From: Halobacteriovorax sp. GB3
GTDB taxonomy: Bacteria; Bdellovibrionota; Bacteriovoracia; Bacteriovoracales; Bacteriovoracaceae
Direction of reading: 5' to 3'
Assembly: GCF_028649655.1 (NCBI RefSeq)
Contig: NZ_JAQSLN010000001.1
Span: 868,001-932,000 of the forward strand
Length of the DNA stretch: 64,000 nucleotides
Shown here: positions 38,736-54,994 of the stretch, one piece after another
How the letters are laid out: the number at the start of each line of letters is the position of its first letter
How positions within the stretch are numbered: the stretch's first letter is position 1
The notes under the pieces: model-generated
Seen by the model: the letters and a program-made list of their open reading frames with translations, nothing else
Database searches by the model: none
Told to the model about the DNA's origin: nothing
Translations under genes and position numbers: made by a program

Positions 38736-39518
38736 CTAGTATGTTTTCTTAATGGCCTTAGAGCTTAAAGTTCCTAGGGCCATAATGAGCAGAAGAAAGA
38801 GAAGCGGAAACTTTCCTGGGCCCGACTTTGGAGGAGTGTTCTTTGATACATCGATTGTTGAACAAAAGCCTGCAAATGGTTGCTCTTTAGGGTACAGATA
38901 ACTAATTCCATCAATATCATCCCAACCAAGCTTTTCTCTTGATGAAGAACTCTCAGCATGCATGAGGTTGTCTTTATATTCAGAGTGGCCAAGTCCTAAG
39001 GCATGACCAATTTCATGTGAGACGACACTAATTTTTTCGTCCATAGAGAGGTCTTTAAAGGCACTTGAACTTGTATCATTCACTAAAACAATTGCACCAA
39101 TAATTGTTTTTCCACTCGTGTTATTGGGTATTGCTTTTGCTAAGATAGAGCCACTTGAAAAGTTTGTCGTATTATCATTACATGAGACAAGAATATTATC
39201 ACTGACAACAAGATCACTATTAATCTCGCAAGTATCACCTGTATTTGTACAAAGAGAGTCATCGTGAAATTTACTATCAACCGTTTTCATCCCACCGTTG
39301 ACAAGCTTTAGCTTACTCGTTGGGACGGTATTCCAAAACCGATTCCCCGCCTCAGTAATGACATAGTCCCAGTCACTTTGAGTGAGAGAAACTTCATTGC
39401 AATTATCGGCATAATAGACTTTCACTTCTTCATTATCAAAAGTCGCTGCAAGGTTGTTATTGAGCGTATAGGCTTTGGCCGAAAAGGGTATCAGAAGGAG
39501 GAGAAGGAGATGAATCAT
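38736..39518 (-). CDS. Matrixin-like (M10-type) metalloprotease with C-terminal membrane segment
   Basis: Secreted zinc protease. A signal peptide (MIHLLLLLLIPFSAKA) precedes a compact catalytic domain with VVSHEIGHALGLGHSE (H168, E169, H172, H178), the extended HExxHxxGxxH zinc motif, and a downstream NLMHAESSS methionine turn. The C-terminus SGPGKFPLLFLLLIMALGTL then SSKAIKKTY is a hydrophobic helix followed by a basic end, resembling a sorting or anchor signal. 260 residues. Its start overlaps the stop of the outer-membrane-like gene by four bases, indicating co-translation. Possible T2SS substrate (inference). Confidence 0.87.
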   Translation of the reverse strand: MIHLLLLLLIPFSAKAYTLNNNLAATFDNEEVKVYYADNCNEVSLTQSDWDYVITEAGNRFWNTVPTSKLKLVNGGMKTVDSKFHDDSLCTNTGDTCEINSDLVVSDNILVSCNDNTTNFSSGSILAKAIPNNTSGKTIIGAIVLVNDTSSSAFKDLSMDEKISVVSHEIGHALGLGHSEYKDNLMHAESSSSREKLGWDDIDGISYLYPKEQPFAGFCSTIDVSKNTPPKSGPGKFPLLFLLLIMALGTLSSKAIKKTY

Positions 39519-40132
39519 AATTTAAACTCTATTTTTCCAAAGTGATAGTTGATCGAAAGAACATAATTCCATGATCGAGAAAGCTCATCTGTAAGATTGA
39601 GAATGTGGGCATCAAAATTAGCGCTATAAGTATCCGTGACATGAGCGCGAAGGCCAATGGTTGTCAAGAGGTTTTGGCTTGTACTTGATCCCTCTGGTAT
39701 TGGGAAATCACTGTAGCCATCTCCATTTTGAAGCCTTTTCGTTCCACCATCTGAACTTAGATTGACCCAATAGAAACCTGTACCAAGGCTTAGTGCTAGA
39801 AACTTATAGTGGTAGGCGATTTTTGCAAGAAGATTGAAGCTCCACTTCTTAGTATTGGGGTCTCTTCCTTCGTGAGGAAGGGTTAAACCAAATTCAGGTT
39901 CAAAAGCAAAGTTTGTCTCATAGAGATTCAAGCGCATTCCCGTTAGAAAATAGGGATTGAAATCAAAGCTCTCCGTCTTTCCACTTTCATCGACTTGGAC
40001 ATGACCGACTAGTTCGGTAAGGTTGCCGATTCCTAAAAAGAAATCGTCTATATAAGGAGGACCCTTTTTAGCAAAGCTCGAAGAACATAGCGAAAAAAGG
40101 CCGATAATAATGGCTAATTTTAGTTTTTTCAT
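39515..40132 (-). CDS. Outer-membrane beta-barrel-like protein
   Basis: Predicted exported protein. The ATG at 40132 gives MKKLKLAIIIGLFSLCSSSFA, a signal peptide, better than the upstream ATG at 40171. The mature part alternates hydrophobic and polar residues, contains several AYHYKFLALSLGTGFYWV-like strands and ends INYHFGKIEFKL, resembling an 8-stranded barrel with an outward-pointing terminal. Length is 205 residues. It is co-translated with the matrixin gene (4-base overlap). No confident family; a porin-like or adhesin role is a guess. Confidence 0.6.
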   Translation of the reverse strand: MKKLKLAIIIGLFSLCSSSFAKKGPPYIDDFFLGIGNLTELVGHVQVDESGKTESFDFNPYFLTGMRLNLYETNFAFEPEFGLTLPHEGRDPNTKKWSFNLLAKIAYHYKFLALSLGTGFYWVNLSSDGGTKRLQNGDGYSDFPIPEGSSTSQNLLTTIGLRAHVTDTYSANFDAHILNLTDELSRSWNYVLSINYHFGKIEFKL

Positions 40133-40233
40133 AGTGCTAAATATTGTTTCAATTATACAAGATATTGACAACTTTTTTGTTTATCAATGGAGTCATCGGG
40201 CCTAAAATAGGGGCATTAACAAAGGAACTCACT

Positions 40234-41347: not shown

Positions 41348-41881
41348 TTATAAGTCGAGATCTTCTTTCTTATGATCTTTGATCATGGGTTCAAACTTTG
41401 TTTGGGCCCATGTTTCAACAACTTTGCCATCTGTTCCTACAAGTGCTTCATAGCTATGGCGAAGGCCACCTTCTTTATTGACTTCAATAACAACATGTCT
41501 AAGTGAAACAAATTTCTTTCGAATTAACTTTTTGATTTTTGACTTTTCTCTAATAAAAATTTGAGTGTCTTCTTTTTCAAATCTAAGAAGAGTTTTCGCT
41601 AAATCTTTTTTCCACTGAGGGGCCGCTTTAATTGTCGTTGGTACACTGGCAATCGAGCGAGAAGCTTCATTTTGTTGATTAGCAACTTGTGGAAGTTCTT
41701 CCTTTTTCATCTTCTTTTGAAGGCGAGGTGGAACATAAATGGATGTGAAATCTTTTGATTTTGTTTTTTTCAGTCCGTGCCAAGTCATATTATTTTTTTC
41801 ATGTTTTTGTCCGTCATCATATACTTTGTAAATGATGGCGGCCGAGAATAGAAAAAAACATAGAATCGCAACTCTTTTCAT
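41348..41881 (-). CDS. Membrane-anchored protein of unknown function, third gene of a secreted operon
   Basis: A 177-residue protein with an N-terminal hydrophobic anchor or signal (VAILCFFLFSAAIIYKVY). The remaining part is basic and polar, with a conserved-looking C-terminal segment (KKFVSLRHVVIEVNKEGGLRHSYEALVGTDGKVVETWAQTKFE) that may be a small beta domain. No family is recognised. AGGGTTAAACA precedes the ATG. It begins 14 bases after the metalloprotease gene, so it is probably co-transcribed with that and the 1030-residue protein gene. Confidence 0.6.
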   Translation of the reverse strand: MKRVAILCFFLFSAAIIYKVYDDGQKHEKNNMTWHGLKKTKSKDFTSIYVPPRLQKKMKKEELPQVANQQNEASRSIASVPTTIKAAPQWKKDLAKTLLRFEKEDTQIFIREKSKIKKLIRKKFVSLRHVVIEVNKEGGLRHSYEALVGTDGKVVETWAQTKFEPMIKDHKKEDLDL

Positions 41882-41895
41882 TGTTTAACCCTGTA

Positions 41896-44268
41896 TTAGT
41901 CAAGAACTGTAAATTGAAAGTTGATCACTTTAAAGGGATCATCTTCCATATAATGTGAGTCCTTCAGATCATTATTCCCATCATCGTGACAATCAGAACA
42001 ATTTGTGAAGCTTACTCTTAATCGGCAATTAAACGTCGTTCCATGAGGAATATGAGGAGAAACTTCCATAAAGATGAGATTTCCAGTATCTAGCAGCGGA
42101 CTACCGTCTGATCTTTTAAATACTTCTGCCCACGTTTTATTAGGCTCAATCTTTGAATACCATGCCTGATCAACACCTCGTGGGATACGAATGTAACAGC
42201 TCTTTGTATCGCTTGGATCAAGACACTTGCTTTCATCGAGACCATGGTTTTCTCTAAAGTCCTCTTGTGAGGCCCAACGTGTTTCTGATTCTTCATTGAG
42301 TTGAACCATACAACTAGGGTAGAGCTTGTAGTCGAGAAAATCAGCATTGTCTGATGAGCTTGGATTCATTTCATCAAATGTTAAATCAGCGCAGCTATTG
42401 TTTTGATCAAGATCACTTGCCGTGGCACCTGTTGATTTAGGAAAATTATCGATGTTACAGGGTCTCGGAGCTGCCGGAGATTGAGTTGTGTCCTTATAAA
42501 AATGGGCCCAATCACTAGCGACCACACGTACACCAGAAACGATGGAATTCGAATTATTGAAAAGATTTAAATGGATTCCAACAAATTCACCTGGAGATAT
42601 TTTTCCATTACCATTGTTGTAGCCAAGAACATCATCTATTTGTGGAGAAATAGATGTAATTTTTCCCGATGAGAGAAATGATGTAAGAACGTTATAGAGG
42701 GATGACTGTTTATCAGAAACATAGAAGCCATTCTTTCCAAGTCTATCGTCAATCTTAATAACACTCTTGCTGACAAGTTCCGTTTTTTTCCTGTTGGCAA
42801 GAGTTACCTTGGTATCAGTCAGACCCGTTCCATTCTCTCCATTCATTGACTCGTTGAAGTTTTTAAAAAGAAGGAGCCCATAGCTATCGAGAAGTTGCTC
42901 GAGCGTGTCTTGATAAGTTGCTTTAGTACAGCTTCCCGTTTGTAGGGAGGAAATTGTTCTAAGAATATTTTTACCAAAGGTCTGCGAGAAGCTTCTATAG
43001 TCGATTGGCTTAAGCGCATCAACCATAAGCTTACTATAAGTTGAATTTAAGTTAACATGGGTTCCACTTGGATAGTGATCACTACCTTTTGCTGTTAAAT
43101 CTCCAAGCTCACTGAGAGTTTCGTTGATATTATTCATGACAAATCTTGTGGCCTTATCTAGTGGGATATTACAGGCCGATTCTATACTCTTGGTTTGCGC
43201 AACAAGGTAGTGGGACATTATTTGTCCAGCATAGTGAATATCTTCGTAGGAGCTATTTTTATCGTTTGGATCATAATCCAAGTAGGTTGGGTAACTCAAG
43301 CGCTCAGAGGTGCTCGTAGAGATTCCCGCTGCATGGAGTGGATCGTCTTCAGACATTGGTCTTGATTGATAAAAAACACGTCCAAGTCCCCATTCACCAA
43401 TGTGAGTTCTATAGTTCATATAATAACTAAAAAAGTCTGCGATCCCTTCGTTAATAGCACCTGCTTCATCATAGGAAACAACACCAAGATCAGATCGAAC
43501 AACAAAGCTTGAATCAAGGGCCTGGTAAGCTTGATTTCTCATATTCATCATAATATCAACAAGACCGTGTCCAACCTCGTGATAGATAACAGTATTGTCC
43601 TCTGCCAGTTTAAAGTCTGGATAAACGGAACTATAGCCCATGCACAATTCAAATGTGGCGGGTGAAAATGAAGCGTTATTAGCAAAATCACAGTGTGAAT
43701 AACCCGTTAGAGTTGTATTTTTTTTCCAATAACTTTGAGTTGATTTCAATGTATCAGGAAGAGCTGTTGGGTATTGAAGTCCACCTGAAGCGACTTCAAA
43801 ATGAGTCTCCATATCTCCTAAGTAACGATCGACAACTCTTTTTATATGACCAAAAGTTTGTACCTGTAAAAACTCATCTGTCGAAGTTGTAAAGGCCCAT
43901 TTCTTAGTCGTTGATTGAAGAGGGGATTCATTAACATCCATTCTTGCTGACATACAATTTTCAATAAGAAGACAATCTCCTTCAAGAAATTGAGAATCAG
44001 AAATAAACTCCTGATCAATGGTTAGATAGCGATCAAGAGATGTATCGACGGCTAAATTATCATTTCCAGAGAGAATGATTGGGTTGTCATCGAGGATTCT
44101 TCCATAGCCTGCACTTACAGAGTTTGGAGTGTTACTCACATAGGAATTTGAAGTTCTCTTACCTGAAGTTGCTTGCTGAAAGCAAGACGTAGCAAGAGTC
44201 ATCAAAAAGATGACTCCTGTTATTTTGTGATAAATGTTAAAAGTCCTTCTCGCGTTTTCTCTATCCAT
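41896..44268 (-). CDS. Gluzincin-like metalloprotease lipoprotein
   Basis: A 790-residue predicted lipoprotein: lipobox near LATSC with Cys 29 after a signal sequence. The catalytic signature is VIYHEVGHGLVDI (H230, E231, H234) and INEGIADFFSYY (Glu 274, 40 residues later), the HExxH plus ExxxD-type pattern of gluzincins such as M4/M36 thermolysin-fungalysin relatives. The rest is not similar to a family I know: it includes an LGYNNGNGKISPGEFVGIHLNL domain that resembles a C-terminal beta-sandwich. Several cysteines near the C-terminus (CRLRVSFTNCSDCHDD) suggest disulfides. It lies 15 bases downstream of the 1030-residue protein gene. Confidence 0.7.
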   Translation of the reverse strand: MDRENARRTFNIYHKITGVIFLMTLATSCFQQATSGKRTSNSYVSNTPNSVSAGYGRILDDNPIILSGNDNLAVDTSLDRYLTIDQEFISDSQFLEGDCLLIENCMSARMDVNESPLQSTTKKWAFTTSTDEFLQVQTFGHIKRVVDRYLGDMETHFEVASGGLQYPTALPDTLKSTQSYWKKNTTLTGYSHCDFANNASFSPATFELCMGYSSVYPDFKLAEDNTVIYHEVGHGLVDIMMNMRNQAYQALDSSFVVRSDLGVVSYDEAGAINEGIADFFSYYMNYRTHIGEWGLGRVFYQSRPMSEDDPLHAAGISTSTSERLSYPTYLDYDPNDKNSSYEDIHYAGQIMSHYLVAQTKSIESACNIPLDKATRFVMNNINETLSELGDLTAKGSDHYPSGTHVNLNSTYSKLMVDALKPIDYRSFSQTFGKNILRTISSLQTGSCTKATYQDTLEQLLDSYGLLLFKNFNESMNGENGTGLTDTKVTLANRKKTELVSKSVIKIDDRLGKNGFYVSDKQSSLYNVLTSFLSSGKITSISPQIDDVLGYNNGNGKISPGEFVGIHLNLFNNSNSIVSGVRVVASDWAHFYKDTTQSPAAPRPCNIDNFPKSTGATASDLDQNNSCADLTFDEMNPSSSDNADFLDYKLYPSCMVQLNEESETRWASQEDFRENHGLDESKCLDPSDTKSCYIRIPRGVDQAWYSKIEPNKTWAEVFKRSDGSPLLDTGNLIFMEVSPHIPHGTTFNCRLRVSFTNCSDCHDDGNNDLKDSHYMEDDPFKVINFQFTVLD

Positions 44269-44283
44269 AGAAACCTTGATGTT

Positions 44284-47200
44284 TTAGCGGCCTTCTGCCG
44301 TTGGCGCGCCTGCCAGATTCGAGAGAGAATTTGCAATATCCTCCATCGTCGGAGCTCCTCTGGACTGATCATTTCCTGCGAAACAACCAATTTGATTTGC
44401 TCTCTCTCCCAGAGCACTTAACTGTACTTGGAGATCTTCGTTAATAGACGTATCGAACTGTTCATTCATTTGTCTTAGTTCTGCACTACGAATATTTCCT
44501 TTTTCTTCATCATATTTATCTTCATAACAATCCATTATCGATGACTTAGAGTCTTTTCCTGAACAGAGGTCGATTGCTTTTAGAATCGCTTTATTGTTGA
44601 TCTCTGCACACGGGTTTTCATCTTGAGAGATACCTTCAAGATTATCTTTCAAGTAAGTAAGAGCTTCTTTCTTATCTTTATTGTCATCATTATCGTATGA
44701 ATTGATTTTTTCACTAAACCAGTTAGAGATTGAAGAAGAAGTCGACTTCATTTTAAATCCATTAAGGCTCGTTCTTAAATCTTCTAGGCTCTCCGCTAGG
44801 TTTTCATCTTCTAGCGATGGAAGTTCATCACTTTCACCTGAAAGGTACTTCTCGATTCCAGCGAGAGTTTTATCTTCAATATCAAGTGGAAGCTTCGATA
44901 GGGAAGAGTTAATTAGATTCTCTTTTACCTTGCTCCAGTTATTTTTCTTTTTAAGACAAATATTAACGAGTGCTGGAAGTTTAGTATCTGAACTTTCTTC
45001 AGCTTCTTTTCCAAACCCTTCACAAATGGCCACCATTTGACCATTGATGCTATTCATCTCTCCATTGAGACCAGCATTGAGGATCTTTGTCATGTCGTTA
45101 GACATTTGCTTTAGACCATTTCCATTACAAAGTGCGTTTGGACTTTGTTTGGCAAGTGCTCTTGTCGAGTTACAGAAGTTTTGAGCAAGGCCTCTGTTTT
45201 CCATTTGCTGCGCAAAGTTCTTTGCATTTCTTGTATTTTCATTTGTGTTATACGTTGTAATATTTGATGTACATGAGTCTTTTAGACCAACCCACTTATT
45301 TCTCTCATTAACAAGTGATGCTTCTTGGTCATTGATATACTGATCAACATTAGCAAGGGCCGCTTTACTTTGGTCGGAAACCATTTTCTTGATTTGATTT
45401 TCAATAAGTGATGGGAGCTTGTCCATAAACTCTAGAGATCCATTCCCAAGAAGTTTTACTCCTAATTCATTGTTGTCATCGATCTCTGGCATATTAATGA
45501 AAAAGTCTTTTGGTAGCTCATAAGCAGCTCCACCAAAGTAATTTTTTAGATAGTCCATATCGGCGATAACTTCATTTTTTATTTGCGCTAATTTCGCTTC
45601 TTGCATTACGACAAGAGCACTTAAATTCGCATTGTATTTAGAGGCGAGAACTTCTAGCTCTTTTGTTTTTTGAGCTACAACTTTTTCTGCGCCAGCATAA
45701 CAAGCTTGTACTTGATTTGAACATGTCGTTGCATTCGCTAGACAGAAACTATCTCCAGCTGGATTGAAAATTTCTCCGTTAGGATCACAAGTTCCCGTTT
45801 CAACTGGTCTGTCTTTACAAGTCAGGAGGTCTTCTGTGATATTTGTTGATACCTCAGAAACAAAATTCTTTTGCAGTCTAACTAGGTCTTTAAGATAACC
45901 CTTAGCTCTTTCTGTTTTCTCACTATGAGACTCTAGGTTCCCAGATGACTTATCTGCAGTGTATCTTTGCTCACAAGCATCTTTTGCTTGCATAAAGTAT
46001 TCGTAAGGAAGGGGAGCTCTTGTGTTACCATCAGTCCCTTTGTATTTCATGACAACTTTACCGTTGTTATCAGATTCAAAGGCCTTTAGTTGTTCAATTT
46101 TATCGTCCATTGAAATACTGTCGTTATTAAGAATATTTTCAATTCTTACTTTGAATGTATTGATTGTTCCGCTACCTGTTCCTGAACCTGTATAAGTTAA
46201 GCTGCTAAGAACTTGATCGAGACTCAGTCCTACATCTCCTGTCACACAGTCTTGGATATAATCATTTTTTAAATTCTTTACGACTTCTTTTTCAAAGTTT
46301 TCAATATTTACACTGAAGTGCTTATCCATCGCTGGTAATTTGTAGTCACCAGGAATTGAGTCTTGAGCCTGCTTATAAACTGTCGAAATTTCACTATAGT
46401 TTTTCATAACAGCTTCAGTCATTTTCGCTGCAAAAGGATTTGATTTTTTTACAGGAAAAGTACTTGAAAGCGAGGAAATCCCATATTTATTAACTTGTTC
46501 AATAATATCGTTGATGGCATCGTTTGCTCTTTTAGTGTAAGCGCCTTTATTTGTTTGAAAATTAACCGCTTGTTGATTATTTTGGGCCATCGAGTTTTTA
46601 ACACCAAGAAGTCCACCATTCTTTGCTCCTGGAGCAAGCTTTTCTGGTCCAATAATATTTCGACATTCATTAGAAAAGTACTTTGAAAAATCTCTCTGTT
46701 TTTCTGCAAGTGACTGACTACCTGAACCTTTACCTGTTAGTTCAGAATTAAGGTCTTGCATTTGTGATTTAATCGCCTTGTTTTGCTCTTTAAAAAGTTG
46801 CATGTCTTTTTTTATTTGATCAGCAAGTGCTTGAAGAGAGTTTAATTTGTCTTGAAATCTAGCTTCTAATTTCTTTTTCCCTTCATCAAGACACTGTAGA
46901 CCTTTAGTGTAAGTGGTGTTCTGTGCTTTTGACATGAGTTGATCAAAGTATCCTTCATAGGCCACTGAAAGCTGTCTGAACATATTGGCCTGGGCCGCAT
47001 CGGCGTCATTCGTAGGTGTTTCAAGACAAGCACCTTCTGGATAATTTGATTTTGCAGGGGCCACATAACAGAATTGAAAATTTGGATCATTAAAGTATTT
47101 TGCAGGAACTGGCTGAGGTGCTTTAAGGCTGCTCATCTGATTTGCAGAGAGATATTGTTGCATACCTTGTTGTCTTAAATTGATAATTTGATTTCCAAGG

Positions 47201-47376
47201 TATTGAGAGGCCTGTCCAACAACTCCTGCTACTTGAGAAAAAGTGTCGTTTGGCCGCGACTGAGCAAGTGCATTTGGAATGTAAACGCTAGGGAGGATTA
47301 AACCCATTGAAGTTGAATAACAAACCAATGAGTGAACTAGCTTTTTCATTGGATTTCCATTTTTTCTCGTTTTCAT
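44284..47376 (-). CDS. Large secreted coiled-coil protein of unknown function
   Basis: A 1030-residue exported protein. The ATG at 47376 follows AAGAGGATCGA, and the signal peptide runs to about LPSVYIPNALAQS. Residues of about 120-230 form a strong coiled-coil (KGLQCLDEGKKKLEARFQDKLN ... EQNKAIKSQMQDLNSE), with more helical heptads at about 560-700. Cysteines are spaced in pairs, for example ETGTCDPNGEIFNPAGDSFC and NATTCSNQVQACYAG, so disulfides are likely. No catalytic domain is visible. It is the first gene of a three-gene operon with a metalloprotease lipoprotein; a structural or scaffold role is only a guess. Confidence 0.65.
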   Translation of the reverse strand: MKTRKNGNPMKKLVHSLVCYSTSMGLILPSVYIPNALAQSRPNDTFSQVAGVVGQASQYLGNQIINLRQQGMQQYLSANQMSSLKAPQPVPAKYFNDPNFQFCYVAPAKSNYPEGACLETPTNDADAAQANMFRQLSVAYEGYFDQLMSKAQNTTYTKGLQCLDEGKKKLEARFQDKLNSLQALADQIKKDMQLFKEQNKAIKSQMQDLNSELTGKGSGSQSLAEKQRDFSKYFSNECRNIIGPEKLAPGAKNGGLLGVKNSMAQNNQQAVNFQTNKGAYTKRANDAINDIIEQVNKYGISSLSSTFPVKKSNPFAAKMTEAVMKNYSEISTVYKQAQDSIPGDYKLPAMDKHFSVNIENFEKEVVKNLKNDYIQDCVTGDVGLSLDQVLSSLTYTGSGTGSGTINTFKVRIENILNNDSISMDDKIEQLKAFESDNNGKVVMKYKGTDGNTRAPLPYEYFMQAKDACEQRYTADKSSGNLESHSEKTERAKGYLKDLVRLQKNFVSEVSTNITEDLLTCKDRPVETGTCDPNGEIFNPAGDSFCLANATTCSNQVQACYAGAEKVVAQKTKELEVLASKYNANLSALVVMQEAKLAQIKNEVIADMDYLKNYFGGAAYELPKDFFINMPEIDDNNELGVKLLGNGSLEFMDKLPSLIENQIKKMVSDQSKAALANVDQYINDQEASLVNERNKWVGLKDSCTSNITTYNTNENTRNAKNFAQQMENRGLAQNFCNSTRALAKQSPNALCNGNGLKQMSNDMTKILNAGLNGEMNSINGQMVAICEGFGKEAEESSDTKLPALVNICLKKKNNWSKVKENLINSSLSKLPLDIEDKTLAGIEKYLSGESDELPSLEDENLAESLEDLRTSLNGFKMKSTSSSISNWFSEKINSYDNDDNKDKKEALTYLKDNLEGISQDENPCAEINNKAILKAIDLCSGKDSKSSIMDCYEDKYDEEKGNIRSAELRQMNEQFDTSINEDLQVQLSALGERANQIGCFAGNDQSRGAPTMEDIANSLSNLAGAPTAEGR

Positions 47377-47679
47377 TCGATCCTCTTTTACTTTATTAAA
47401 TATTCCAAGATGTTAGACTCATCGGCTAAAACCTTTTCATACTTTATTTTAATAGCTGACCAAAAAACTCCCTATTAAAAGCTGTATATCTTGCCCAATC
47501 TTTAGAAAATAGCGCTCATTTAGTACAATAAATCTAAGTATTTCAATGATTTATAGAAGTCGTGGGGAATTGCCCCAAGTTGGAATGAATACAATTTTAG
47601 GTGCCATTTATTTGGGCCTTTAAAAAAAGCTTGGCAAGTTTTTAAGGACTTGGCCCAGTGAGCTTGAAGGAAGAAGAAA
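47377..47679. other. 303-base intergenic stretch between divergent genes
   Basis: Separates the 1030-residue protein gene (minus) and the RDD gene (plus) and should carry both promoters. No ORF with a ribosome site is visible; the 25-codon ATG frame at 47547 has none. A short TGGGG-AATTG-CCCCA dyad lies at 47563-47577. A longer imperfect inverted repeat (TGGGCC to GGCCCA) covers 47613-47657. Nothing else stands out. Confidence 0.5.
47613..47657 (+). repeat. Imperfect inverted repeat before the RDD membrane protein gene
   Basis: TGGGCC (47613-47618) pairs with GGCCCA (47652-47657), and the inner arms TAAAAA and TTTTTA also pair, leaving an asymmetric internal loop. It ends 8 bases before the ribosome site of the gene at 47680. 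Could be a leader hairpin. Confidence 0.35.
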
Positions 47680-49224
47680 TTGAACAAGTCTCTTGTAACT
47701 CGTCGAATTTTTGCTTTTTTTATCGATTTTATAATCGCGGCCCTTGTCATGGGGAGCTTGTTAAATTTCGAGGACTTTAAAAATTTCTTCATAGATATTG
47801 AGGCCGTCTTCTCAAAGCAGTTGGTTCTCTTTATTAGTGCTTATTGCTTGAGCTGCTTATTGCGTTTTTATCAAGTTCTCATTTTTAATACTTCTCTTGG
47901 CCTTTTACTTAGCGGACTTCAGACAGCGGGATGCGGACCGTTTTTAAGTCGAATTGTTTTGGCCATGAAGTCTCTGTTGTCACCCCTTTTTTTTCTTCTT
48001 TTGCCCTTTGATCTTTTCTTTAAAGGTGAGGCCGGCGTGCTAGAGGTCTTTTTTCATCTTCGTTATCAAGAGAGAAAAACACCTTTAATCATGGCCCCCA
48101 TTAGTTTTGCTTGTTTACTGGTTTTATTACCGGTGAGTTTACTTATGTGGGATCTCGCCATTTTTGATCGCGTGGATGTCTCAAAGGTTGTCTATAAAGC
48201 ACAGAAACTTACGAATTCAAGTCAGTTCAATCTTTTTAAAACGTATCAATCAAACCTCTTTCACTTTTCTTCTTTTAGTTCCCTTGGAGATGGTCGATTC
48301 ATTGTCTATCCAAGTTTTCAAATGGAGCAAAAGGAAAAATTTATTAGTTTCTATCCGAAGCTTCAAATATTTGATGATCAGAGAAAGAAAACGGCTCACT
48401 TTGAAATTATTGAAAAGAATTTAAAATTAAATGAAATGTTAAAAGAGAGCTTTCATAGTGACCTGTGGCTATCAATGAAATTTCGCCACCTCCAACAATA
48501 CATTGATAGCGAAAAATCATTAGATGATCTTGCTAAGAAGCAATTACAAAAACTCATTCTGATGGCCATGGAGATGAATAAAACCAATCTCTATGCAGAA
48601 ATTAAAACTTATGGGCCTTATCCTTATGGAGTCATGCTTCTTAGAAAGAGACTTTTAGATGTTTTTCAAATGGGTGAGCATATTAAATTTGATCTTGTTC
48701 ATTATGGAGATTCCAAATTTGTTCGCGTCGTAAAAAAATATGTGATGAGTGAATATGAAGATTCTATTCTTCTTCCTATTGCCGCCCTTAAAGTCCCACT
48801 TTACAGGTTGAGATGGCCCTTAGAAGGGGAGAAGGCCGTGGGCAAAAAAGAGTTTGAATCTTCACTCTTTGCCTCTTCTAAATGGAAATTTGAGAAATCT
48901 GATCAATTTCATTTTCCCGATAACACAGCAGAGATGAATCCGCTGTTTATCCTTGATTATTTTAAGGATAAAAAGCTCAAAGAGAATAAACGTGTTCTTT
49001 TTGAGGGCTATGTTTATAGCTATTTTAAAGATGTCGCCAAAGATGCGCTGGAGCGAGGAGATGATATTCTTCGCGATCAATTATATTCAACGCTAGAGAT
49101 GATCGGAGAGATTGTGAGGCTTAGAAATCGTAAAGAGGAGTATTATTCTCGTGAATTTATGAATAAGCTAAAAAATCTCTTACAGGCCCTTGCTAAAGAG
49201 GATCGAAACTACTTTAATATCTAG
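47680..49224 (+). CDS. RDD family membrane protein with a long soluble C-terminal part
   Basis: Inner-membrane protein. The TTG start at 47680 is preceded by GAAGGAAGAAGAAA. The opening LVTRRIFAFFIDFIIAALVM resembles the RDD domain (Arg then Asp near membrane helices). Four hydrophobic segments lie at about 10-32, 45-66, 95-118 and 145-168. The remaining 340 residues are soluble and helical, rich in Lys, Glu and Phe. No catalytic motif. The next gene, uppP, begins directly after its stop, so the two are likely co-transcribed. Confidence 0.65.
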   Translation: MNKSLVTRRIFAFFIDFIIAALVMGSLLNFEDFKNFFIDIEAVFSKQLVLFISAYCLSCLLRFYQVLIFNTSLGLLLSGLQTAGCGPFLSRIVLAMKSLLSPLFFLLLPFDLFFKGEAGVLEVFFHLRYQERKTPLIMAPISFACLLVLLPVSLLMWDLAIFDRVDVSKVVYKAQKLTNSSQFNLFKTYQSNLFHFSSFSSLGDGRFIVYPSFQMEQKEKFISFYPKLQIFDDQRKKTAHFEIIEKNLKLNEMLKESFHSDLWLSMKFRHLQQYIDSEKSLDDLAKKQLQKLILMAMEMNKTNLYAEIKTYGPYPYGVMLLRKRLLDVFQMGEHIKFDLVHYGDSKFVRVVKKYVMSEYEDSILLPIAALKVPLYRLRWPLEGEKAVGKKEFESSLFASSKWKFEKSDQFHFPDNTAEMNPLFILDYFKDKKLKENKRVLFEGYVYSYFKDVAKDALERGDDILRDQLYSTLEMIGEIVRLRNRKEEYYSREFMNKLKNLLQALAKEDRNYFNI

Positions 49225-50043
49225 ATGAATTACTTTTGCGCACTGATATATGGGATTGTTCAAGGATTAACAGAGTTTCTTCCTGTTAGTAGTAGTGGAC
49301 ACCTTGCTCTTCTTCCTCATTTTTTAGAGATTAAAGACCCTGGCATCGCCTTTGATTTGGCCATGCATGTTGGGACGGCCTTGGCCATCATGCTATATTT
49401 TAAAAAAGAAGTTCTTACTCTGATTAAAGAGTATCTCTTACTTTTTACTTTCAAGAAGTCTTATAAAGATCTTCCTTTTGCGACAAACTTTCTCGTGGCA
49501 ACTTTTTGTACTTTTGTTACGGCCATGAGTTTTAAGGGGTTGGCCGAAAGCTATGGCCGTTCGGAAACTTTCATTGCTGTAAATCTCATCGTCTTTGGTA
49601 TTTTGATGGTCATCGTTGATATGTATTGTCGCCAAAATGATGAAGATATCATGTTTAAGGGTGTGAAGCTAAAGCACTCGTTTTGGATCGGCCTTTTGCA
49701 AAGTCTCGCCCTCTTTCCCGGGGTCAGTCGATCGGGAATTACCATGACTACGGCGCGCTATTTAAATCTCTCGCGCGATGAAGCTTCAAGGTTTTCATTT
49801 CTTCTTTCGTTGCCCTTAATCGTCGGTGGAGCGATCCTAAAGCTTCCAGATCTCTTTTCTGGAGACGGTCAGATTTCTCTTTCTATATCACTCTTTGGTG
49901 TCTTTATCGCTTTTGTCGTAGGGATTTTGACGATCCATTACTTTTTAAAAGTCATTAAAAAGATTGGGCTGATCTACTTTGGAGTGTATCGAGTGATCTT
50001 GGCCATTGGTGTTCTTTGGCTTAGTTCCAAGGCCCTTGTTTAG
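49225..50043 (+). CDS. uppP: Undecaprenyl-diphosphatase (BacA/UppP)
   Basis: Integral membrane enzyme that recycles undecaprenyl pyrophosphate to the monophosphate lipid carrier for peptidoglycan and O-antigen synthesis. Both active-site blocks are present: GLTEFLPVSSSGHLAL near residue 14-30 and FPGVSRSGITMTTARY near 166-181, each with the catalytic Glu/Ser/Arg residues. Eight hydrophobic helices fit the fold, and 272 residues is the family norm. It starts directly after the RDD gene's stop (TAGATG). Loss of the carrier supply makes this an essential-type gene in many bacteria (known). Confidence 0.95.
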   Translation: MNYFCALIYGIVQGLTEFLPVSSSGHLALLPHFLEIKDPGIAFDLAMHVGTALAIMLYFKKEVLTLIKEYLLLFTFKKSYKDLPFATNFLVATFCTFVTAMSFKGLAESYGRSETFIAVNLIVFGILMVIVDMYCRQNDEDIMFKGVKLKHSFWIGLLQSLALFPGVSRSGITMTTARYLNLSRDEASRFSFLLSLPLIVGGAILKLPDLFSGDGQISLSISLFGVFIAFVVGILTIHYFLKVIKKIGLIYFGVYRVILAIGVLWLSSKALV

Positions 50044-50064: not shown

Positions 50065-53000
50065 TCAGTTACATGTAAAGACTTGAAGAAAGCTCGTATC
50101 GACATCGGCCTGATCTTGAAAATCGATCGGGATACAGTAGAGGTGGTTATTCCATCTTAGGCCTTCATCAAAAAATTGTGCCTGACCTTTGTCATTATTC
50201 TCTGTTCCATTTCCATCAATAAAGCGCGAGATTGTAGGATCATTTTCATTGGTCTTACCGGCGACTTTATATTTTCCATAGGCAAGTCCGTAGCCATAAA
50301 CACCAGATTCACAAGCATCGATTTGACAGGCAAGTGAAAGAGTCGTGCTCACTGAGTTAATGAATCCTGTTGTTTCATCAAATTGCGCACTATTTAAGTC
50401 TTTTGCCTCACTAGAGACGTAGCGGTTTAGATAAACAGATACATTTGAATAGTTTTTAAGAGCACACTTATTTGTTTGTGGATCAATATGACCTGTACAA
50501 CAGAGGTTTTCATCACTGCCTGCTGGCATTTCTGTTCCGGCCGGTTGACAGCATGAGAAGCTATCGGCCGAGAAAACTTTCTTAACGTCACTTATAAAGT
50601 TCGTGTTCGCCTCATTTGTATAGTTTGCTGAATAATATCTTTCAGCGCCATCGCTATATTCTTTGGACTTTGTGAAATCCACAAAAGCTGCAGGAGGGGC
50701 AGTGCCAGCTAGTCTTGAATTCGTTGGTTGTACGCTACAGTTGAGCTCTTCAAAGGTCTCTGATTTGATCGCCACTTGAGGAATCCCCACAAGTTCCATC
50801 GTTCCAAGCCATTTAAGAACTTCGTTGGCCTCATTTTCAGCAATGGATCTGGCAAAGCAATCTGGGTCTGTGATGGCATCAGATCCGCTACAGTTAAATT
50901 TAGAAGTGTCTCCTGATCCTGGATTTGGGGCCCAGTTGTAACAACGAAGAGACGACTTATCAAAATTTTGCATTTTATCTGGACCCCATTCATGACCACC
51001 ACCAATAGATGTGTCAAAATTTCGAATCCAGTTTTCAGAGCAACAAGTTCTACCTGCTGTTTCATCAATTGTATTAAATTGCTTTTTGACAGTTGAAACA
51101 TCGAGACAGCCACTATCACACTTATTGTCTCTTGCTACTTGCATCGAAGGGTAGTTCGATGGGTCAGTTTGTCTCTTATAGTGACTAACAGCATTTCTTG
51201 AATAGCGACTCGAATTATTTAAGTCGATATTAAGACCTGGAATGCTTGTGATATCAATTGATGTGTCATTGTCGGCCACTGACGGGATTGACATCTCTTT
51301 TCCCGGAGCTCTACAACAACGGTTAAGAGATTGGTCAAATCCTTCTGCTCCTGGTGAATTTGGCTGAGAGCAAATAAGGGTTTCTTGCCAAAATTTAATC
51401 TCATAAGGGTTAAGACTTGTTGTCGTTGTTGGATCAATTGTCAGCGCAGCATTTGAAATAAAATCATTTGCTGCACAGTCAAGGTTAGTGTGACAAGTAG
51501 CTCCTGGAGCTCTTAGGCATCTATTTTCTTGAAGAGCTAGAGATGTTATTTGATTGTTATTAAAATCATCTAAAATCTTTTGACCAGAAATTGATTGAAT
51601 TAGTGCAAGAGAGTTTGTCGGCATTGATTGTGAAGCAGCAATATTTGTTATCTGAGCACTATTGAGTGCTTGATTGTAACTTGTCTCTTGAAAGTTGAGA
51701 AGGTTATTTGATTGATCAAAGTTAGCACACATGGATAGGTAATCGGCCCTTTGAATCGATCCCGATTGTGTTACTCCAATTCCAATGACTTTATCTCCAT
51801 TACTGGCATCAGTAGGGACGTTGTCATTAGTTGATGCGAGTGTGTCAGTAGATAGTCCTGGAGATCGTCCTGGAAGACAGATTCCATTGACAGCATTATT
51901 AATTAGGTTTCCATTGGCATAAGTATTAACTTGCTCATCACCTTGGTCTTTATAAGGCCTTCCTAAAATTCGGGCGCCTTTTCCAAAGCTTGAAAGAGTG
52001 GTTTCTGCGACATCACTGCTATCATTTTGCTCAACCACACTATAAGGCCAGCGAGCGACTTTATTGTTAAATTTTTTCTGATACTGACCGTCAGCATAGA
52101 ATTCTTGACAGTAGTAATTTGGCGCACATCCTAAAAGACGCGACTTAGCAGTCTTATTAAAAGTAGAGGCAGCATTTTGACCTGTGTAATCCGCTTGGCA
52201 AGGTGCTCCTCGTCCTCTATAAACACAACGCTTAAGACTATCACCACCATAGCTTCCATTTAATAAAAGGAGTTTTTCAAGAACTTGATCCTGAGGAACT
52301 TCAATGGCGTTATTGCTAAATCTAGGGTAGAAAGATTGAATATCTGAAACGGATTCACAGACATATTCCCATCCAAGCTTGGCACTACAGTCACTGTCAT
52401 TATTACAGCTATGTTGGGCCTGGCATTGAGCACCAGTTGTTTCATAGTCTGTTGTTGGCATCGTTGTACTTGGATCTGAAATGATTGAGTCTTTAATCAT
52501 TACTTGAAAAGAACTCTGAACAGTTAGATCAGAAAAAAATGAGTTGATAGCTAGATAGAGTTTATTTGTTGTCGCTTCAATTCTTCGGGCATTACCAATA
52601 GCAAACCAACGAACACCATCAAATGATCCAATCAATGAACCATAGTCAAAACCATACCAATCTCTTTGGTAACCATTGGCAAAGTAGAAGTGTTGGGCCG
52701 CAAGGCGCGATTGTCTTTGAATTCTAGAGTCACTCATCGTTGTATGAGACCATGGAATCATTGTCGCTGGAACAAAACAGGCCCTACCAAAAATAAGATC
52801 ATCCGCTCTATAAGTTTCTGTTGCACTTCGGCTTGTTTCGGTTTCATTTGGCACATAGCCACCACCGTATCCATTAAATGATTGAGGAAAGAGATCGGCG
52901 AGTGTTGCAGAGTAGTCATTTCCACAAGTCGTACAATTTGAAAATGTTGCGTTACCAACGATAATATCGTAACTCGTACCCTTTTCAACATCGACAACAT

Positions 53001-54975
53001 GGGCCGGAAGTCCTGTTAATGTGCGATATGAGAAGCTCCCATAAATTTCGTTAAAACCAATATACTTAGTCGTATTATTTGGTAGAAATTTACTTCCATT
53101 AGTGTACTCAAATGCTTCGCCTTCTTGGGCGAGAGTTTCATTTGATTGAATATCGGCAAGGAGTAGGTTCTCGCGAGCAACACCTGAGATATCATAATAG
53201 CGGTGCGGAGCTGATCGAGTGTCGACGTTCACAACTTCTTGCATCGGAGAAGGATTCGAGTTATCAGGCTGAGTGCAGATATAATCAGTGATGATGCCAA
53301 GACTTTCATTATTATTTTTATAAACAGGTTTCAATGAACATTGTAAATCTGTGCATGAGCAGAAGCTATCAATTTGCTCTAGTGCTTGTTGCTTAAGACC
53401 GATGATTCCTTGATTGGTTGGAACTGTTAGATCGACGTAGTAATCAATGACAACTTCTTGCTGGTTAAAAACTTTAAGTCCAGTACCGTTGAAGCGAACG
53501 ATAGAAGGTGATCCAATAATTAAAGTGTATTGGTTACCTGATTGTTGAAGTGTTCCATCTACTCGTACTTCGATTAAGCTTGAGTTATCAGCGTAAATCG
53601 GTAATTTAAAGTCATTTGACTCTGGAAAGTGATCTGTGACAATTCCAAGGTTTTGTCCTTGAACATAGGTCTTTTGACAGCGAGCAAGAGCATCGTTAAT
53701 TTTTTGACAAGAACCATCTACCATATAGCGAACGACAAGAGTGTCATCTTTAATCGTGCTATCTTTTGCTTGTGTCAGTGTTAATTCCTGAGAATTAATA
53801 AGATCATCATTTCCAGAAGCAATCGTAACTCCATTAGCTGCCTGAGTACTAGAGAAAAGTGTTTTTCCTTGATAGAGAACTTCTGTCACACTTGTAGTAT
53901 TTGTTGATACATAAGTTTTAAAACTACGATCATCAGGGTTTGTGTAGAATTTCTTATCACTATCGGCAGAAGCATTTGTAAAGCGCATTGTACAAATACT
54001 CATTTCACCAACCTGAGGAGTTGTACATTGATAGAGCTCTTCTAGCATTTCAAGTCGATCTTGGGCGAGTTCATCAGGGTCTTCATCATCAGAAGTATCG
54101 TCATCATCACCTGGTGTTGTCGTTCCACAGAGGTTATAGAAATTAGGATAATTTGAAATGTTATTTGGATTTTGACTTATGCTAAAAAGCGCCTGAAGAA
54201 ATTCAGGAGTCGAAGTGTCGACGCTACTTTTTAAGGTTTTATCGTTAACACACTGACCTTGAATACAACAATCGTAACCAAGAGTTTGACAATTGTCTTC
54301 AATTAAACAGCTCACTGAATCTGTTGGTAGCGATGTGGTTTGAATTTTTAGTCTTAAATTTGTAAGCGTAATATTTTCGATCTTCGCACCAGCATAAGAG
54401 TAGAGAAGAATCGAGTTCGATGTGAGCGTCGAAGTTTGGCAATTTGTACAAACATCTTGCAATCGATAGACAGGAGTTGTTGAGTAGAGTGCATTAAGTG
54501 CTGTAACAATACCTGTTTTTAAGCAAAAGGTCTGATTCGTTTCCTGATCATCGGGCGACATACTATAATAGTATTCTCTCTGATTGGTCCCAAGATTTGT
54601 GATGTACTTTGGCCTTGCGGCCATGACAACTAGAGGGTTCGTACTACCTGTAGGGATATAAGCAACAAAACACTGAATCGTATCAGGATTATTTCTTACA
54701 AAGTAATCAACTTGTTTCCCTCTAAGAAAAAAGTTTCTCGTCTCTGAGAGAGAAAGAGAAAAAGTATTGTTACTCGTTTGATCTTGATTGGATAAAGAAT
54801 TCACAGAGTCTGAAAAATCAGGTGTTTCAACAGTATCATCTGTTGAACCTTGTTGTTCACTTGTTTCTGTTGAGCGTTTACTAGATGGAGTTGTTGGTAA
54901 ACAAGAACTCACTCCAACTGCCACGAGAAGAAGTGCAATAAAACTGAGTTGTGTGAAAATCCCTTTTTGTCTCAT
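50065..54975 (-). CDS. Giant Cys-rich lipoprotein of unknown function
   Basis: A predicted surface or periplasmic lipoprotein. The ATG at 54975 with AAAGGATTTT before it is better than a GTG at 54990. Its N-terminus (MRQKGIFTQLSFIALLLVAV) leads to the lipobox VSSC (mature CLPTTPSSK). The product is about 1636 residues. Cysteine-rich clusters recur, many with CC pairs or a C-x-x-C: CSCTDLQC, CQAQHSCNNDSDC, CHTNLDCAANDF, CCRAPGKEMS, CDSGC, CCSENWIRN, CCQPAGTEM and CCTGHIDPQTNKC. No recognised domain. Unusually, many segments mention Asn/Ser/Thr-rich linkers. Family-wide function is unknown; a role in attachment or the outer surface is a guess. Confidence 0.68.
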   Translation of the reverse strand: MRQKGIFTQLSFIALLLVAVGVSSCLPTTPSSKRSTETSEQQGSTDDTVETPDFSDSVNSLSNQDQTSNNTFSLSLSETRNFFLRGKQVDYFVRNNPDTIQCFVAYIPTGSTNPLVVMAARPKYITNLGTNQREYYYSMSPDDQETNQTFCLKTGIVTALNALYSTTPVYRLQDVCTNCQTSTLTSNSILLYSYAGAKIENITLTNLRLKIQTTSLPTDSVSCLIEDNCQTLGYDCCIQGQCVNDKTLKSSVDTSTPEFLQALFSISQNPNNISNYPNFYNLCGTTTPGDDDDTSDDEDPDELAQDRLEMLEELYQCTTPQVGEMSICTMRFTNASADSDKKFYTNPDDRSFKTYVSTNTTSVTEVLYQGKTLFSSTQAANGVTIASGNDDLINSQELTLTQAKDSTIKDDTLVVRYMVDGSCQKINDALARCQKTYVQGQNLGIVTDHFPESNDFKLPIYADNSSLIEVRVDGTLQQSGNQYTLIIGSPSIVRFNGTGLKVFNQQEVVIDYYVDLTVPTNQGIIGLKQQALEQIDSFCSCTDLQCSLKPVYKNNNESLGIITDYICTQPDNSNPSPMQEVVNVDTRSAPHRYYDISGVARENLLLADIQSNETLAQEGEAFEYTNGSKFLPNNTTKYIGFNEIYGSFSYRTLTGLPAHVVDVEKGTSYDIIVGNATFSNCTTCGNDYSATLADLFPQSFNGYGGGYVPNETETSRSATETYRADDLIFGRACFVPATMIPWSHTTMSDSRIQRQSRLAAQHFYFANGYQRDWYGFDYGSLIGSFDGVRWFAIGNARRIEATTNKLYLAINSFFSDLTVQSSFQVMIKDSIISDPSTTMPTTDYETTGAQCQAQHSCNNDSDCSAKLGWEYVCESVSDIQSFYPRFSNNAIEVPQDQVLEKLLLLNGSYGGDSLKRCVYRGRGAPCQADYTGQNAASTFNKTAKSRLLGCAPNYYCQEFYADGQYQKKFNNKVARWPYSVVEQNDSSDVAETTLSSFGKGARILGRPYKDQGDEQVNTYANGNLINNAVNGICLPGRSPGLSTDTLASTNDNVPTDASNGDKVIGIGVTQSGSIQRADYLSMCANFDQSNNLLNFQETSYNQALNSAQITNIAASQSMPTNSLALIQSISGQKILDDFNNNQITSLALQENRCLRAPGATCHTNLDCAANDFISNAALTIDPTTTTSLNPYEIKFWQETLICSQPNSPGAEGFDQSLNRCCRAPGKEMSIPSVADNDTSIDITSIPGLNIDLNNSSRYSRNAVSHYKRQTDPSNYPSMQVARDNKCDSGCLDVSTVKKQFNTIDETAGRTCCSENWIRNFDTSIGGGHEWGPDKMQNFDKSSLRCYNWAPNPGSGDTSKFNCSGSDAITDPDCFARSIAENEANEVLKWLGTMELVGIPQVAIKSETFEELNCSVQPTNSRLAGTAPPAAFVDFTKSKEYSDGAERYYSANYTNEANTNFISDVKKVFSADSFSCCQPAGTEMPAGSDENLCCTGHIDPQTNKCALKNYSNVSVYLNRYVSSEAKDLNSAQFDETTGFINSVSTTLSLACQIDACESGVYGYGLAYGKYKVAGKTNENDPTISRFIDGNGTENNDKGQAQFFDEGLRWNNHLYCIPIDFQDQADVDTSFLQVFTCN

Positions 54976-54994
54976 AAAATCCTTTTCCACTAAC

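Follow-up and report, generated by a model that had tools for sequence, protein, structure and literature searches.

The propeptides of M4 and M36 metalloproteases are classic chaperones and inhibitors, carried in the same chain as the enzyme. The lipase-specific foldases Lif/LipH consist of an N-terminal transmembrane helix, a variable linker and a periplasmic folding domain (PMC7046727), and in Bacillus spores the hydrolase SleB shares an operon with the PepSY-domain protein YpeB, which stabilises or inhibits it (PMC6660665). Here we analysed a three-gene operon of Halobacteriovorax sp. GB3 (host genome 3.62 Mb), located in a stretch of 64,000 nucleotides (contig NZ_JAQSLN010000001.1, positions 868,001 to 932,000; this whole stretch is called the window below). 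We consider it reasonably probable that the operon specifies a zinc protease whose prodomain is supplied by a separate gene, together with a large order-specific protein made alongside it. The genes, named A, B and C in the order of transcription, are separated by gaps of 15 bp (A-B) and 14 bp (B-C) on the minus strand, just as a sequence-only reading of the window had described them (14-15 bases apart):

44284..47376, minus strand: gene A, 1030 aa, putative secreted helical/coiled-coil protein with a signal peptide, order-specific
41896..44268, minus strand: gene B, 790-aa lipoprotein, predicted M4/M36-type zinc protease
41348..41881, minus strand: gene C, 177 aa, with N-terminal membrane anchor, linker and predicted C-terminal PepSY-like domain

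The order Bacteriovoracales was sampled with 116 genomes, comprising one family and 46 genera. Gene B was present in 106 of them, mostly in single copy. A lack of co-occurrence in related genomes had been set beforehand as refuting the operon, which passed this test: among the loci with readable flanks, representing about 35 genera, A lay directly upstream of B in 54 of 55, and a C-sized gene lay directly downstream of B in 53 of 55. The usual spacing in these 55 loci was 0-70 bp between A and B and -8 to +15 bp between B and C, and B and C overlap or touch in most genomes. Of eighty named loci, most of them labelled Bacteriovoracaceae, Halobacteriovorax or Bdellovibrionales, nearly all had the same layout where the contig reached, as did cultured predators such as Bacteriovorax sp. 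BSW11_IV and DB6_IX. With single-sequence queries, A was recovered from 74 of the 116 genomes and C from 46; a C profile recovered C in 100 of 116 (E<1e-10). The A profile was searched in 291 genomes (97 of the order and 194 other Bdellovibrionota), and matched 95 of the 97 and none of the 194. Gene order was kept even though the mean column identity of the A, B and C families is as low as 16-34%. In one genome (G039), an unrelated gene follows B and C is on another contig, retained though unlinked. Recurrence of this succession of genes throughout a bacterial order puts the arrangement beyond chance, and A-B-C is a conserved operon of Bacteriovoracales. Scanning of the window sequence revealed no terminator-like site on the coding strand between the three genes. 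A Shine-Dalgarno-like AGAGGA precedes the ATG of gene A. Promoter-like sites at A-B-C were no commoner than in shuffled sequence, and the promoter scan was uninformative.

We scrutinized the product of gene B, for which a HExxH/E gluzincin site had been proposed. Alignment of 41 B homologues demonstrated that H230, E231, H234, E274 and D278, which make up the motif HExxH...E(G/A)xxD (HEVGH at 230-234), are invariant in all 41, and on this ground we take the site to be real. The lipobox cysteine C29 is likewise invariant in these homologues, and B has an additional C-terminal region with conserved Cys. M4_C was the commonest Pfam match of the family (20 of 41 members, best E 2e-4). Counterparts of B in other Bdellovibrionota families, denoted B', are mostly 500-690 aa long and aligned with B at a probability of 100% (hhalign, E 3e-42). 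Pfam Peptidase_M36 was matched by 14 of 14 B', two of them scoring 32.8 and 26.0 bits against a cut-off of 23.3, and in PDB searches B' matched fungalysins (E 5e-10) and thermolysin (E 1e-5). No FTP or PepSY domain was matched by Pfam in the 41 B or 14 B' proteins, and only about 200 residues precede HExxH in either, which in B is too little space for a propeptide. From these results we conclude that B is an M4/M36-related zinc protease without an in-chain propeptide. An assignment of B to FtsH/M41, the sole direct PDB match (E 0.1), was rejected, as it reflected local HExxH similarity only.

Clues to the role of C came from C', its counterpart in the other families. In most loci C' is located directly downstream of B' (at about -4 to +20 bp), and it is mostly 210-300 aa long with an N-terminal anchor. 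Its profile matched pro-thermolysin (5a3y, residues 97-218, E 1.6e-7) and the Mcp02 propeptide (3nqy, E 2.1e-7) in the PDB, and Pfam detected FTP in 8 of 15 and PepSY in 3 of 15 C' proteins. Across the 291 genomes, the C' profile found 26 strong stand-alone C' genes, 25 of which adjoined B', at about 0.4-1.3 kb from its catalytic core. By homology, C' clearly resembles an FTP-PepSY propeptide of M4/M36-type proteases that is separately encoded and membrane-anchored. In some genomes the profile also matched likely in-chain propeptides in open reading frames (ORFs) of about 520-650 aa, and fused and separate forms of the propeptide seem to coexist in the phylum. The B'-C' gene order is the reverse of the usual order of propeptide and then catalytic domain; therefore, it cannot be put down to a simple split by frameshift. 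The genes upstream of B' were not A-like but, by eye, threonine-deaminase-like or TPR-like. At one locus of another family (L262:7042-7866), a possibly propeptide-like gene of 275 aa was seen by eye upstream, not downstream, of the protease.

In Bacteriovoracales, C occupies the same position as C' and has the same plan of anchor, linker and C-terminal domain. The AlphaFold2 model of C consists of an anchor helix (2-23) and a domain of one helix (89-98) and four strands (107-158), modelled with a high predicted local distance difference test score (pLDDT). Because the direct hhalign comparison of C with C' was weak (probability 44.5%, E 2e-4), a rank test was adopted, in which 1173 unique ORFs, 92 of them C, were searched with a profile of the PepSY part of C' after removal of their first 45 residues. 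C proteins made up 28 of the top 30; they are mutually related, so that the hypergeometric value is no true probability. PepSY (PF03413) was the commonest Pfam match among C proteins (8 of 74, best E 0.0032), and C is called PepSY-like because the window copy is not above the cut-off of this family. The best sequence match of the C profile in the PDB was the PepSY-type YpmB (E 0.03). In VIA-align, the PepSY-like entries DUF2874 (4k61) and YpmB (9a5z) reached Z 3.8-4.5, alongside many unrelated rows. One genome has, in addition to its main B gene, a second M36-type protease with a 244-aa C-like partner (L254, G060:C236), which is intermediate between C and C' and gave a bridging match (E 2e-4). 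Taken as a family, C is thus homologous to the PepSY-bearing C', a relationship that is weak for the window copy by itself. The sequence-only reading had called C a small anchored protein; the anchor was borne out, and homology points to something more than an anchor, namely a partner of the protease that resembles a PepSY propeptide and is encoded separately.

How could such a pair work? We propose that B would be exported and lipidated, and would adopt a thermolysin/fungalysin-type fold without the usual N-terminal propeptide. C, judging from its sequence and model, would reside in the inner membrane with the PepSY-like domain in the periplasm, and would act in trans as a folding helper and/or inhibitor of B, which would stay inactive until moved on, for example to the outer membrane. 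We infer the trans role of C from its homology to C', an FTP-PepSY protein beside B', and from its Lif-like plan of anchor, linker and domain. The order includes obligate predators, and this would also fit an arrangement in which C is a PepSY-like inhibitor or tether shielding the predator envelope from B, B is a digestive or prey-opening protease, and A is merely co-expressed. We regard that arrangement as rather unlikely, since B is a conserved, mostly single-copy lipoprotein in fixed synteny with envelope genes, unlike an expandable digestive enzyme, and since B' also occurs in families whose C' resembles a complete FTP-PepSY propeptide.

Gene A had been described as encoding a large, secreted coiled-coil protein, and the AlphaFold2 model agreed with this description, being almost all-helical with very long helices such as 546-613 and 649-743. 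The mean pLDDT of the model was 80 and the predicted template-modelling score 0.42, which leaves the overall arrangement uncertain. The protein has an N-terminal signal peptide (by eye), and the family has 15 invariant cysteines. Neither A nor C gave a Pfam or NCBIfam match above threshold, in accordance with the earlier statement that the first and last products belong to no recognised family. Assignment of A to a known family was rejected, as its match to Pfam Filament (0.0015) was below cut-off and its NCBIfam matches were coiled-coil noise; Foldseek returned generic coiled coils of the SMC/MukB, flagellin and PrgA types, none significant. As a separate observation, A proteins beside B end in Lys/Arg in 35 of 70 cases, compared with 102 of 521 ORFs of these loci, which may reflect relatedness; seven A proteins from B-less genomes have no C-terminal Lys/Arg.

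In the last step of our proposal, A would be exported and disulfide-stapled into long helical rods, and B would process or remodel A, and perhaps the neighbouring lipoprotein D described below, in an envelope or surface assembly of Bacteriovoracales. Operon order and shared presence or absence suggest, more weakly than the evidence for the B-C pair, that B matures A or D. Another possibility is that A-B-C is a device for prey attachment or invasion, in which A is a surface stalk or adhesin that B trims and C anchors. It would suit the exported, rod-like A of the model, the presence of the operon in cultured predators, and the enterococcal coiled-coil surface protein PrgA among the weak Foldseek rows. 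We consider it unlikely, because those rows are generic coiled coils without a significant one among them, the surface location of A is putative, and no expression or phenotype data were found in the literature searched. Since nearly every member of the order has the operon, a core function in the envelope is no less plausible than a device for attacking prey.

We then considered the flanking genes on the A side:

47377..47679, no strand: divergent intergenic region between A and R, 303 bp
47680..49224, plus strand: R, multi-pass membrane protein, divergent from A
49225..50043, plus strand: UppP/BacA (PF02673)
50065..54990, minus strand: D, 1641-aa lipoprotein-like protein with 55 Cys

From its position, the 303-bp region likely holds the operon promoter. 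R, which has a weak RDD match, diverges from A in 47 of 54 loci, and D lies within four genes in 45 of 54. UppP, probably a housekeeping gene, is equally conserved within three genes of A (46 of 54). Genomes of genus g9, and of g25, g35 and g42, have A without B and C, and R still adjoins A in some of them. These last two features could mean that D-UppP-R-A-B-C is a slowly rearranging core region of neighbours whose products do not act together. That explanation appears quite improbable to us, given that the gaps measure about 0-70 bp and that B and C touch or overlap in most genomes, that the gene order is kept despite so little identity, and that a B-C-type pairing recurs in other families within a different neighbourhood. 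D was found in 46 of 50 Bacteriovoracales genomes and was absent exactly from G010, G018, G034 and G038, all of which also have no B and only weak anchor-region matches to C, or none. These four genomes represent two genera, and hence at most a few independent losses. The view of A-B-C as a three-gene unit was upheld in part: it is one operon with a dedicated protease and a scaffold-like A, and the unit extends further, with D, UppP and R as conserved neighbours and D missing where B and C are missing.

Some additional observations were made on these neighbours. A partial paralogue of D elsewhere in the genome (G000:C3:578647-581007) recurs across the order, and both D and this paralogue are absent from the four sampled genomes that have no B. 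An FHA domain (1e-11) was seen in an R homologue of another genus (L133:2325-4745), which also matched, below threshold, the cytoplasmic domain of YscD, an inner-membrane component of the type III secretion system. Just downstream of the operon, on the same strand, 38736-39518 encodes a matrixin-type metalloprotease (Pfam Peptidase_M10, 2e-11), which overlaps the upstream gene 39515-40171; a hydrophobic stretch with a basic tail closes the protein and resembles a C-terminal surface-sorting signal. This protein and B are both zinc metalloproteases encoded close together; the matrixin, however, is a metzincin encoded by a separate gene that lies outside the conserved operon in relatives.

Several results weigh against our interpretation. 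The window copy of B scored below the curated cut-off of Pfam Peptidase_M4_C (19.6 versus 24.4 bits), and for this reason B is filed as M4/M36-related and not as a Pfam M4 member. A direct PDB search with B matched no M4/M36 entry. In addition to the weak direct alignment with C', the window copy of C on its own reached only rank 38 (E 8.4) with the C' PepSY profile, matched 0 Pfam families, and its model gave no significant structure match in Foldseek. The FTP half of C' is missing from C. The joint absence of B, C and D may represent just one or two events, in smaller genomes. Binding of C to B, and cutting of A or D by B, are predictions only.

A broader proposition can be put forward tentatively, as possible though doubtful in its entirety: that there exists a Bdellovibrionota-wide class of M4/M36 proteases whose propeptide has become a protein of its own, anchored in the inner membrane and comparable to Lif but serving a metalloprotease, and that Bacteriovoracales have added to it an order-specific envelope assembly, in which C licenses B to mature the disulfide-stapled, coiled-coil A and the giant, Cys-rich lipoprotein D. 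The literature searched, which excluded most subscription journals, contained no description of the operon and none of an M4/M36 propeptide encoded in trans; a comparative study of predatory Bdellovibrionota, centred on peptidoglycan enzymes, does not mention the operon in the passages available (PMC11656739). If the proposition holds, a natural membrane-tethered, separate propeptide would show how a cell can produce such a protease within its envelope without harm and activate it after release, and B with C would offer a simple two-gene system for testing. A-B-C-D is a near-universal, unstudied envelope locus of Bacteriovoracales; A and D are absent from the other Bdellovibrionota sampled, and the locus may thus take part in lineage-specific aspects of the envelope or of predation.

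Among known systems, thermolysin (M4) and fungalysin (M36) with their FTP-PepSY propeptides (pro-thermolysin 5a3y, Mcp02 3nqy/3nqz, MEP 4k90) have the same HExxH + E + D zinc site as B, and C' is homologous to these propeptides, as C is, at family level, to their PepSY part. In contrast to them, the propeptide here would be anchored to the membrane as a protein of its own, with its gene downstream of that of the protease; B is a lipoprotein extended at the C-terminus by a region that contains Cys, and C has no FTP part. YpeB-SleB resembles C-B in that a PepSY-type partner shares an operon with a hydrolase, whereas SleB is a cell-wall hydrolase rather than a protease and belongs to another lineage. 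Pfam and NCBIfam scans gave no Lif family match for C. Nevertheless, C has the same layout as Lif/LipH, a separate protein dedicated to one enzyme; it differs in that its client would be a metalloprotease instead of a lipase and its domain is PepSY-like, and by analogy it may have a folding role as well.
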